64,000 nt of DNA, from NCBI GenBank assembly GCA_025964795.1, contig JAOPYC010000090.1, positions 1-64,000 of the forward strand, given 5' to 3'. Made by a program: the position numbers and the translations under genes. The first letter of the stretch is position 1, and each line of letters starts with the position of its first letter. The notes under the pieces are model-generated. The model searched no databases. It was given only the letters and a program-made list of their open reading frames with translations, and was not told the DNA's origin. This stretch comes from Marmoricola sp. (lineage in GTDB: Bacteria > Actinomycetota > Actinomycetes > Propionibacteriales > Nocardioidaceae). This document shows, in pieces, positions 506 through 3,290 of this stretch.

Positions 506-1798
506 TCAGCGGCGGTCGCTGATCCGTTTCGCCTTGCCCAGGGAGCGTTCCAGCGAGTGCGGGGCGAGCACGTCGACGTGGACGGTGATGCCGATCCGGT
601 GCTTGATCCGGAACCGCAGCGCGGCGCCGAGGGCCTCGGGGTCGTGCACCCCGGACGGCAGCTTCGCCGCGTGCTCCACCTGGACCAGCAGCTCGTCCAG
701 GTTGCCCGGTCGGCTGAGCACGCACAGGTAGTGCGGCGTCAGTCCCTCGATGGCCAGGATCTGCTCCTCGACCTGCGAGGGGAACACGTTCACCCCCCGG
801 ACGATCATCAGGTCGTCGGTGCGACCGGTGACCTTCTGCATCCGCCGGAAGGTGGGGTACGCCGTCCCGGGCAGCAGCCGGGTCAGGTCGCGGGTGCGGT
901 AGCGCACCACGGGCATCGCCTGCTTGGTCAGCGAGGTGAACACCAGCTCGCCCTCCTCGCCGTCGGGCAGCACCTCGAGGGTCACCGGGTCGACCACCTC
1001 CGGCAGGAAGTGGTCCTCCCACACGTGCAGGCCGTCCTGGGTCTTGGCCGACTCCTGGCTCACGCCGGGTCCCATCACCTCGGACAGGCCGTAGATGTCG
1101 ACCGCGCGGAGGCCGCTGCGCTCCTGAACCGTCGTCCGCATCTCGTCGGTCCAGGGCTCGGCCCCGAAGATGCCGACCTCCAGGCTGGTGTCGTGCGGAT
1201 CGACGCCCTGGGCCTCGAGCTCGTCGAGGATGCTCAGGAAGTAGGACGGCGTCACCATGATGATCCGCGGCTGGAAGTCGAGGATGAGCTGCACCTGGCG
1301 CTCGGTCATCCCGCCGCTGACCGGGACCACCGTGCAGCCGAGTCGCTCGGCACCGTAGTGGGCGCCCAGGCCGCCGGTGAACAAGCCGTAGCCGTAGGCC
1401 ACGTGGCATAGGTCGCCGGGACGCCCGCCCGCCGCCCGGATCGAGCGGGCCATCAGCTCGGCCCAGGTGTCGAGGTCCTCGCGGGTGTAGCCGACCACGG
1501 TCGGCTGGCCCGTCGTACCGCTCGAGGCGTGCACCCGGGCGACCTGCTCGCGCGGCACCGCGAACATGCCGAACGGGTAGTTCTCGCGCAGGTCGGCCTT
1601 GGTCGTGAACGGGAACCGAGCCAGGTCCCCCAGCTCGACGAGGTCCTCGGGAGTTACGCCGGCGGCGTCGAAGGCACGGCGGTAGTGCGGCACCCGCTCG
1701 TAGGCCGACCGCAGCGTGCCGCGCAGCCGTTGGAGCTGCAGGACCTCCAGCTCGGGACGTGTCATCGCCGGGATCTCCCCGGGAGTCTGGCCGGCCAT
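506..1798 (-). CDS. paaK: phenylacetate-CoA ligase
   Basis: Adenylate-forming ligase that would activate phenylacetate (or a related aryl acid) to its CoA ester, the entry step of the paa ring-epoxidation pathway. Signatures: the P-loop SSGTTGQPT near residues 92-100, DIYGLSEVMGPG near 245, the TGRTDDLMIVRGVNVFP hinge near 340, and the small C-terminal PaaK domain. The ATG at 1798 has a GAGGG element 8 nt upstream and gives ~430 aa, the usual length. An in-frame ATG-ATG at 1838-1843 would add 15 residues but sits inside the operator array. No other paa genes are in the window, so the true substrate could be another aromatic acid. Confidence 0.9.
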   Translation of the reverse strand: MAGQTPGEIPAMTRPELEVLQLQRLRGTLRSAYERVPHYRRAFDAAGVTPEDLVELGDLARFPFTTKADLRENYPFGMFAVPREQVARVHASSGTTGQPTVVGYTREDLDTWAELMARSIRAAGGRPGDLCHVAYGYGLFTGGLGAHYGAERLGCTVVPVSGGMTERQVQLILDFQPRIIMVTPSYFLSILDELEAQGVDPHDTSLEVGIFGAEPWTDEMRTTVQERSGLRAVDIYGLSEVMGPGVSQESAKTQDGLHVWEDHFLPEVVDPVTLEVLPDGEEGELVFTSLTKQAMPVVRYRTRDLTRLLPGTAYPTFRRMQKVTGRTDDLMIVRGVNVFPSQVEEQILAIEGLTPHYLCVLSRPGNLDELLVQVEHAAKLPSGVHDPEALGAALRFRIKHRIGITVHVDVLAPHSLERSLGKAKRISDRR

Positions 1799-1834: not shown

Positions 1835-1886
1835 TGACATCATCGATGCTTGTTATGACGTCATAGTGATGTCATAGTGGCATCAT
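1835..1886. promoter_or_regulatory. iterated TGAYRTCAT operator array in the divergent paaK / RHH promoter
   Basis: Four related 9-mers: TGACATCAT (1835-1843), TGACGTCAT (1856-1864), TGATGTCAT (1867-1875) and TGGCATCAT (1878-1886). The last three are spaced exactly 11 bp. ATGACGTCAT at 1855-1864 is a perfect palindrome. A plausible -35 TTGTTA (1850-1855) and -10 CATAGT (1873-1878), 17 bp apart, put transcription start at about the ATG at 1885, so the RHH gene is probably leaderless. The array covers the whole promoter and fits binding by ribbon-helix-helix dimers, most simply the product of the downstream gene. Confidence 0.65.
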
Positions 1887-2409
1887 GGAACTCACTCCCT
1901 TCGTCGACCGGCTCCGGCGCGACCTGTCCGACGCCGCGGCCGCCGGGGGGGCCGAGGCCCAGGCCGCGGCCGACCGGCTCGCGCTGGCCCTGGACCCCGC
2001 CACCCGGATGATGCTGCTCGAGGCGCTGTCGGAGGCGGCCGCCGAGATCACCTCGGCCCTCGACCACGACGCGGTCGACGTCCGGATGAACGGCCGCGAG
2101 CCCGACTTCGTCGTCACCCGCCTCCAGGCCGACGAGCCTCCCGCGACGCCTCCGCCACCGACGCCGCCCACTCCCCCCGAGCCCGAGGACGACAGCCAGT
2201 CGCGGATCACCCTGCGCCTGCCCGAGTCGGTCAAGGCCCGGGCCGAGGAGGCTGCGAACCAGATCGGCCAGTCGCTCAACGCCTGGCTGGTCGACGCCGT
2301 CCGCGACGCCCTCGACGGCCGGCGGGTCGACCTGCAGGTCGCCAGCAGCCGCCTCACCGTCACCGACGACGGAAGTCGTCGCAAGCAGGTCCGGGGCTGG
2401 GTCCGATGA
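1885..2409 (+). CDS. ribbon-helix-helix (Arc/CopG/HicB-like) DNA-binding protein
   Basis: 174 aa. The N-terminal ~80 residues are helical and Ala/Leu-rich. A proline linker (about 85-100) follows, then a ribbon-helix-helix segment at about 106-144 with SRITLRLPESVKARAEEAA followed by a SLNAWLVDAVRDAL helix, as in CopG/Arc/HicB-type regulators. The start codon lies inside the operator array, consistent with leaderless autoregulated expression. Its stop overlaps an ATG (ATGA) at the DUF4097 gene, so the two are co-transcribed. Similar genes are often named HicB-family antitoxins, but no HicA-type toxin is adjacent, so a pure transcription regulator is more likely. Confidence 0.75.
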   Translation: MELTPFVDRLRRDLSDAAAAGGAEAQAAADRLALALDPATRMMLLEALSEAAAEITSALDHDAVDVRMNGREPDFVVTRLQADEPPATPPPPTPPTPPEPEDDSQSRITLRLPESVKARAEEAANQIGQSLNAWLVDAVRDALDGRRVDLQVASSRLTVTDDGSRRKQVRGWVR

Positions 2410-2453
2410 CCCCCACCCGGAGACCCAGCCCCACTGGAACAGGAGAGCTCATC

Positions 2454-3290
2454 GTGCACACCTTCGAGACACCCGACCCGACCATGCTGATGGTCCGCAG
2501 CTCGGCCGGCCACGTCACCGTGACCGCCGGCGACACCGACCGCACCACCGTCGAGCTGACCCCCCTGAACGCCGCCGGCGAGCAGGCGGTCGCCACCGCC
2601 ACGGTCACCCAGCGCGGCGGCGGGATCGTCGTCCACCTGCCGCACCAGCGCGGCGGGCTGTTCCGCCAGGGAGCCTCCGTCGACGTGGTGGTGCACTGCC
2701 CGACCGGGACCGCGCTCGAGGTGCGGACCGACGCGGCCGACGTGCAGGCGACCGGGACCTACTCCCGGGCCTCGGTCACCTCCGGCTCGGGGACCATCGA
2801 GGTCGACGTGGTGACGGGCACGGCCAACCTCAGGACCGGCTCCGGCACGGTCACCGCCACCGACGTCCGTGACGCGCTCGTGGCCGCTACGGGGTCGGGC
2901 AACGTCCGCGTCGGCCACACGGCCCGGACCGCCAAGGTCACCGTCGGCTCCGGCGACATCTCGATCAGTGAGCTCGCCGGCGACGTGGTCACCAAGACCG
3001 GCTCCGGTGACGTCGAGGTGGACCGTCTCGACGGCGCGCTGACGACCAAGACCGGCTCCGGCAACCTGACCGTGCGCCGCGCCGTCGCCGGGTCGGTCCT
3101 CGCCAAGGGGGCCAGCGGCAGCGTCACCATCGGCGTCGAGGAGGGCACGGCGGCCTGGCTGGACGTGTCCACGCTCACCGGCCGCGTCCGCCAGGAGCTC
3201 GGCGAGGCAGCCCCTCCCACGGACGGCGACAACCGCGTCGAGATCACCGCGCACACCGTGAGCGGCAACCTGCGGGTGCACCGATCATGA
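2454..3290 (+). CDS. DUF4097-family beta-strand repeat protein
   Basis: 278 aa of repeated short beta strands with a recurring T-G-S-G-(D/N/T) turn (TGSGNV, VGSGDI, TGSGDV, TGSGNL), typical of DUF4097 putative-adhesin right-handed beta folds. No signal peptide or membrane helix is seen, so it is probably cytoplasmic. The GTG at 2454 is preferred: AGGAG lies 8 nt upstream and the protein then begins MHTFETPDP, like family members. The ATG at 2406, overlapping the previous stop, would add 16 residues. It is co-transcribed with the RHH gene. The biochemical role of this family is unknown. Confidence 0.8.
   Translation: MHTFETPDPTMLMVRSSAGHVTVTAGDTDRTTVELTPLNAAGEQAVATATVTQRGGGIVVHLPHQRGGLFRQGASVDVVVHCPTGTALEVRTDAADVQATGTYSRASVTSGSGTIEVDVVTGTANLRTGSGTVTATDVRDALVAATGSGNVRVGHTARTAKVTVGSGDISISELAGDVVTKTGSGDVEVDRLDGALTTKTGSGNLTVRRAVAGSVLAKGASGSVTIGVEEGTAAWLDVSTLTGRVRQELGEAAPPTDGDNRVEITAHTVSGNLRVHRS

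Follow-up and report, generated by a model that had tools for sequence, protein, structure and literature searches.

A phased array of short palindromes at an actinobacterial ribbon-helix-helix–Toastrack operon: a probable autorepression operator on a predicted leaderless promoter

The region considered here lies near the left end of a 64,000-nucleotide stretch of Marmoricola sp. DNA, referred to in its entirety as the window. At this locus, a gene encoding a ribbon-helix-helix (RHH) regulator diverges from paaK, and a DUF4097/Toastrack gene follows the RHH gene as the second gene of its putative operon. Positions 17 to 499 presumably encode the C-terminal part of a probable CHAT-domain protein, judged by eye from an HLAGHG motif. 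The features relevant to the present analysis are these:

506 to 1798, minus strand: paaK, phenylacetate-CoA ligase (TIGR02155, E 3.9e-202), the divergent neighbor, judged to be outside the system
1835 to 1842, no strand: upstream candidate operator box TGACATCA, offset -21 from box 1
1850 to 1855, plus strand: predicted -35 element TTGTTA (TTGACA in most homologues)
1856 to 1863, no strand: candidate operator box 1, TGACGTCA, a perfect palindrome
1867 to 1874, no strand: candidate operator box 2, TGATGTCA
1873 to 1878, plus strand: predicted -10 element CATAGT, 17 bp after the -35 element and the commonest hexamer at this place (18 of 78 homologues)
1878 to 1885, no strand: candidate operator box 3, TGGCATCA, its left half conserved in homologues
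1885 to 2409, plus strand: RHH regulator gene, 174 aa, predicted leaderless, with the RHH domain at about residues 98 to 143 and predicted contact residues R107, T109, and R111
2406 to 3290, plus strand: DUF4097/Toastrack gene, with a probable GTG start at 2451 behind AGGAG at 2441 to 2445

The first-pass annotation of this DNA described three TGAYRTCAT-like boxes spaced 11 bp apart and a fourth box 21 bp before them, and this observation is confirmed. Read as 9-mers, the boxes are TGACATCAT (1835 to 1843), TGACGTCAT (1856 to 1864), TGATGTCAT (1867 to 1875), and TGGCATCAT (1878 to 1886); their starts, at 1835, 1856, 1867, and 1878, are 21, 11, and 11 bp apart, and the fourth box departs from TGAYRTCAT at one position. 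Because single boxes occur in the window at chance frequency (18 matches with at most 1 mismatch, 17.2 expected), the signal is the arrangement of the boxes rather than the boxes themselves. Specifically, the triple TGRYRYCA-N3-TGRYRYCA-N3-TGRYRYCA has one exact match, unique in the window, and a match arose in 0 of 100 shuffles of the window even with 3 mismatches allowed.

The array is closely fitted to a promoter. Boxes 1 and 2 exactly fill the 17-bp spacer between the -35 and -10 elements, and box 3 covers the predicted transcription start together with the A of the start codon at 1885. The earlier suggestion that the boxes overlay a leaderless -35/-10 promoter holds with respect to the promoter, which fits, and needs amending with respect to the overlay: boxes 1 and 2 lie between the two elements, and box 3 sits on the last base of the -10 element and on the start codon. 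With 6 nt separating CATAGT (1873 to 1878) from the ATG, and with the same placement of -35 and -10 elements at the 78 homologous loci described below, the RHH mRNA is predicted to be leaderless and to start at 1885. A scan for strict consensus promoters reported none at this site because the window's version is weak, matching just 8 of 12 consensus positions. When homologues are aligned on box 1, the -35 element is TTGACA (65 of the 78 match 5 or 6 of its 6 positions), and the spacer and the -10 element hold their register.

The array was also said to lie directly upstream of a gene for an RHH protein, and domain searches bear this out. Residues 98 to 138 match the HicB family PF05534 (E 1.2e-05; 25.6 bits against a cut-off of 21), and this short C-terminal stretch is the only part of the protein with a HicB match. 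A profile of the family, compared with solved structures, matches DUF1778 antitoxins and Mnt and Arc chains over the RHH part. The best solved relative of the RHH domain is 6ajm (E 0.00081), Arc sequences are matched weakly (E 0.033), and MetJ is not found by sequence in this comparison. The N-terminal domain of about 80 residues (1 to 80) is conserved and has no Pfam match above cut-off. An AlphaFold model built from a two-sequence alignment was too poor to use (mean pLDDT 43.8).

The RHH gene is widespread, with homologues in 79 of 149 genomes of the family (here, Nocardioidaceae), 101 of 296 class genomes, and 53 of 396 phylum genomes. The family matches numbered 83, and 78 were analyzed; the set omits G045, where base 7 of the contig is already the first base of the gene, as well as G052 and three weak matches. 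Boxes 1 and 2, taken as a pair and allowing at most 2 mismatches in 16 positions, precede 78 of 78 family homologues and are exact in 68, with one of the 78 rows registered on an upstream pair. Box 1 begins at -29 or -30 from the ATG at 74 of the 78 loci. Among 535 control windows 200 to 900 bp upstream, one has the pair at 2 mismatches and none at fewer. Phylum-wide, with L031 dropped as a duplicate of L002 and three partial proteins also dropped, the pair lies upstream of 170 of 186 distinct homologues; the 16 without it belong mostly to distant branches. Thus, the boxes are conserved upstream of orthologues, a requirement that the first-pass annotation itself set for its reading. The converse search points the same way: the pattern TGACRTCA-N3-TGRTGTCA occurs at 60 distinct places in 58 of the 149 family genomes, 55 of them within 120 bp upstream of an RHH gene, and the reversed pattern has 0 matches in the same genomes. 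G052, outside the set of 78, likewise carries the pair in the genome pattern search.

Further boxes upstream of the pair are optional, yet their placement is not random. The 78 family loci contain 93 exact upstream boxes, and 85 of these stand at -21/-22, -32/-33, -43/-44, or -53/-54; the -21/-22 position is occupied 48 times, including by the window's box at 1835. The -11 position, one helical turn before box 1, is skipped, since a box there would overlap the -35 element. In the family, the upstream boxes have a period of 10.6 bp with a vector strength of 0.94 (random positions reach at most 0.32), and beyond the family (69 boxes in 92 loci) the period is 10.9 bp and the strength 0.77. Phasing at 10.6 bp is what loading of dimers on the same face of B-DNA predicts.

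A second kind of comparative evidence connects the boxes to the RHH protein itself. Among the 186 distinct homologues, R107 and R111 are invariant in all 185 rows that have letters there, and residue 109 is Thr, Ser, Asn, or Ala. Proteins with Thr109 face TGAYRTCA (position 3 of 436 half-sites: 359 A, 76 G, 1 C), and proteins with Asn109 face TGGYGCCA (G at position 3 in 127 of 144 half-sites); because the pair search was built to favor these two bases at position 3, the counts compare A with G, and the C entered through an allowed mismatch. With Ser109, G occupies position 3 in 22 of 92 half-sites, and with Ala109 in 0 of 8. Counted by locus, at least 3 of 4 half-sites carry G at 34 of 36 Asn loci versus 3 of 132 Thr/Ser loci. 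A tree, from which two Ala-109 rows were left out, gives about 4 changes at residue 109 and 1 to 4 independent pairs, none of them in the opposite direction but too few for significance. Residue 109 therefore tracks the box sequence, Thr or Ser with TGAYRTCA and Asn with TGGYGCCA, on few independent changes. Separately, at two distant homologues with Ala at 109 (L272 and L276), the boxes read TGATATCA, with a different centre.

The partner of the RHH gene is nearly constant. The DUF4097 protein matches PF13349 (E 1.5e-16; 61 bits against a cut-off of 22.9). Its open frame overlaps the RHH gene, and GTG 2451 is its likely start because homologues align mostly from about residue 14 to 20 and AGGAG precedes the GTG. 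Where enough DNA is available to judge, a DUF4097 gene comes after the RHH gene at all 30 family loci and at 98 of 104 others (128 of 134 overall). Of the 55 loci with sufficient sequence downstream, 13 have an ABC ATPase gene after DUF4097, as do G003, G112, G499, and G171; no such gene is part of the window's operon. DUF4097/Toastrack is described in PMC11237479 as an intracellular envelope-stress domain, and the same survey records, in actinobacteria, an operon that combines Toastrack and ABC genes with an RHH regulator, the gene association seen here. No operator or promoter accompanies that operon in the portion of the survey considered here, and the corresponding portions of PMC6510168 and PMC4803016 do not touch on the RHH-Toastrack association. 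Our literature search found nothing on this operator and no description of how this RHH family is regulated.

We consider that the array is very probably the autorepression operator of the RHH-DUF4097 operon: conserved, phased boxes overlie the RHH gene's own promoter and start codon, which makes it very probable that the protein represses its own operon. The assignment of the boxes to the downstream RHH gene, also made in the first-pass annotation, gains comparative support from box conservation and from the tracking of a contact residue by box sequence. The notion is that one RHH dimer would bind each 8-bp palindrome TGAYRTCA, with R107, T109, and R111 of the beta-ribbon reading the major groove. 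Dimers one helical turn apart would load side by side on the same face of the DNA, presumably cooperatively. With boxes 1 and 2 filling the -35/-10 spacer and box 3 covering the start and the ATG, occupancy of the array would exclude RNA polymerase. Upstream phased boxes would be extra sites that probably tune the response. We speculate that the releasing signal probably acts through the N-terminal domain (residues 1 to 80) of the RHH protein, the Toastrack protein, or both. Repression is the more probable direction of control, although the sequence is also compatible with activation.

Could the operator also serve paaK? The first-pass annotation raised this possibility, noting that the array reaches a longer possible start of paaK. 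The geometry in this genome invites the idea: there are only 86 bp between the paaK start (1798) and that of the RHH gene (1885), the box at 1835 lies 37 bp from the paaK start, and any paaK promoter must, given such a short gap, be in or next to the array. A divergent operator through which the RHH protein also controls paaK is nonetheless unlikely. Of the 78 family loci, only those of the window and of G066 have paaK next to the RHH gene, and in G066 the two genes are again divergent and the RHH start (25920) is 684 bp from the first aligned paaK base (26604); at the other family loci, no paaK is found in the stretch examined, about 1 to 1.5 kb upstream in most. In 14 other genomes, the paaK orthologue is without the boxes, the best pair near its start having 4 to 6 mismatches, and the -21 box, whose position follows the phase of the RHH promoter, is frequent at loci without paaK. 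Likewise, the longer paaK start at 1843 reads ATGATG, letters supplied by the box itself; it has no counterpart in the orthologues of those 14 genomes, and most orthologues align only from about residue 20 to 30. On synteny, distance, and lack of boxes, we rejected paaK as a target: the coupling of the two genes is not supported, and paaK appears to adjoin the array by chance. Incidental interference with paaK in this one strain is possible.

Other readings concern the identity of the binding factor, the nature of the operon, and the level at which the boxes act. The label under which databases list the homologues, "toxin-antitoxin system HicB family antitoxin," would make the operon a toxin-antitoxin module with DUF4097 as the toxin, and a two-gene operon with an RHH autorepressor is, according to PMC4803016, typical of type II systems. 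We regard this as quite improbable, given that the partner at 128 of 134 loci is DUF4097/Toastrack and not HicA or another toxin, that neither protein has a convincing PADLOC match, and that the Toastrack domain is linked to envelope stress in the text of PMC11237479 cited above. Palindromes by themselves name no protein, and binding by the RHH product is inferred from sequence, so that some other transcription factor might bind the boxes and control the module; the chance of this is slim, as the pair is nearly confined to the RHH gene (55 of 60 places), just two of the 70 family genomes that lack an RHH match carry it (in one case at the edge of a contig, right where the gene would be expected to start), and the box sequence follows residue 109 of the RHH protein. 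Finally, boxes 1 and 2 could form an RNA hairpin near the start codon that acts on translation. Positions 1830 to 1900 do fold at -22.9 kcal/mol (z -2.65), but any tandem of near-identical palindromes folds in this way, the hairpin lies upstream of 1885, where the mRNA is predicted to start, and the further boxes keep the helical period of DNA, also upstream of the -35 element. An RNA element is thus the most improbable of these readings, a very remote prospect.

An autorepression operator of this design has well-known relatives. In phage P22, Arc dimers occupy two subsites about 11 bp apart between -35 and -10, as boxes 1 and 2 do here. The present array differs in being longer, open-ended, phased, and extended over the start codon; the protein has an extra N-terminal domain, and the operon is chromosomal and includes Toastrack. 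MetJ recognizes the core GACGTC in 8-bp tandem palindromes, a basic residue reading G and a Thr reading A. The likeness extends to the GACGTC core and to R107 and T109, which would face G2 and A3; in contrast to the abutting 8-bp boxes of MetJ, the spacing here is 11 bp, and no methionine genes are present. The best solved relatives of the RHH domain, listed as a DUF1778 protein and KacA, we take to be of the AtaR/TacA type. Unlike these and other RHH antitoxins, the present protein has no acetyltransferase toxin as partner, and, unlike HicAB, no HicA. The Omega repressor of pSM19035, an RHH protein that loads cooperatively on arrays of short repeats (PMC4803016), uses heptads, whereas the array here consists of phased 8-bp palindromes at 11 bp. 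Taken as a kind, an RHH autorepressor on tandem palindromes, an operator like those of Arc and MetJ, is strongly supported by the sequence comparisons.

If so, a widespread, unstudied actinobacterial operon gains a concrete, testable operator and promoter, and a misleading "HicB antitoxin" label is corrected. In addition, natural protein-operator pairs that covary at one contact residue and one base pair should be useful for testing the RHH recognition code. A broader picture, which we offer only tentatively and consider rather doubtful as a whole, is that of a phylum-wide family that combines an RHH regulator, Toastrack, and an optional DrrA-like exporter and that may sense envelope stress. 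Its promoter would be leaderless and bear an extensible phased array; specificity would be set largely by residue 109, with Thr or Ser reading TGA and Asn reading TGG, a natural one-residue switch; and the operator would also stand at an exporter gene elsewhere in two genomes.

These last sites are among the five of the 60 pair places that are not at an RHH gene (in G032, G001, G034, G068, and G055). In G032, the contig ends just where the gene would start. In G001 (C41; L123, 1495 to 1540) and G034 (C6; L124, 1540 to 1590), the pair overlies the leaderless ATG of a gene, located elsewhere in the genome, for a DrrA-like ABC ATPase (TIGR01188, 291 bits, below the 312 cut-off); in G034, this reading frame seems to be interrupted, through either decay or assembly. 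Because the nearest DrrA-like homologues (in G012 and G001; 47 to 49% identity) have no boxes, this target is limited to two genomes, too few for a regulon. Exact pairs also occur away from any RHH homologue at G068:C106:2433 (L126, near 1534) and G055:C188:82593 (L127, near 1594); as inverted repeats, these may be something else. In the window's own genome, the pattern search gives one more place at 1 mismatch (C168:33275) and 11 at 2 mismatches, and since the control gives 9 matches we claim no further targets there. The place C23:24639 (2 mismatches), near a DrrA-like gene, we attribute to chance; it lies about 40 bp before the likely start and has no promoter grammar.

A related arrangement is seen in another RHH family. 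A TGGCGCCA pair 11 bp apart lies on a predicted leaderless ATG at G015:C21:10928 (L160, near 1429) and G026:C1:16633 (L161, near 2134). By eye, we assign the gene there to a different RHH family, FitA/VapB-like, with a VapC-like frame after it. The promoter-operator grammar at these two sites is the same as that described above.
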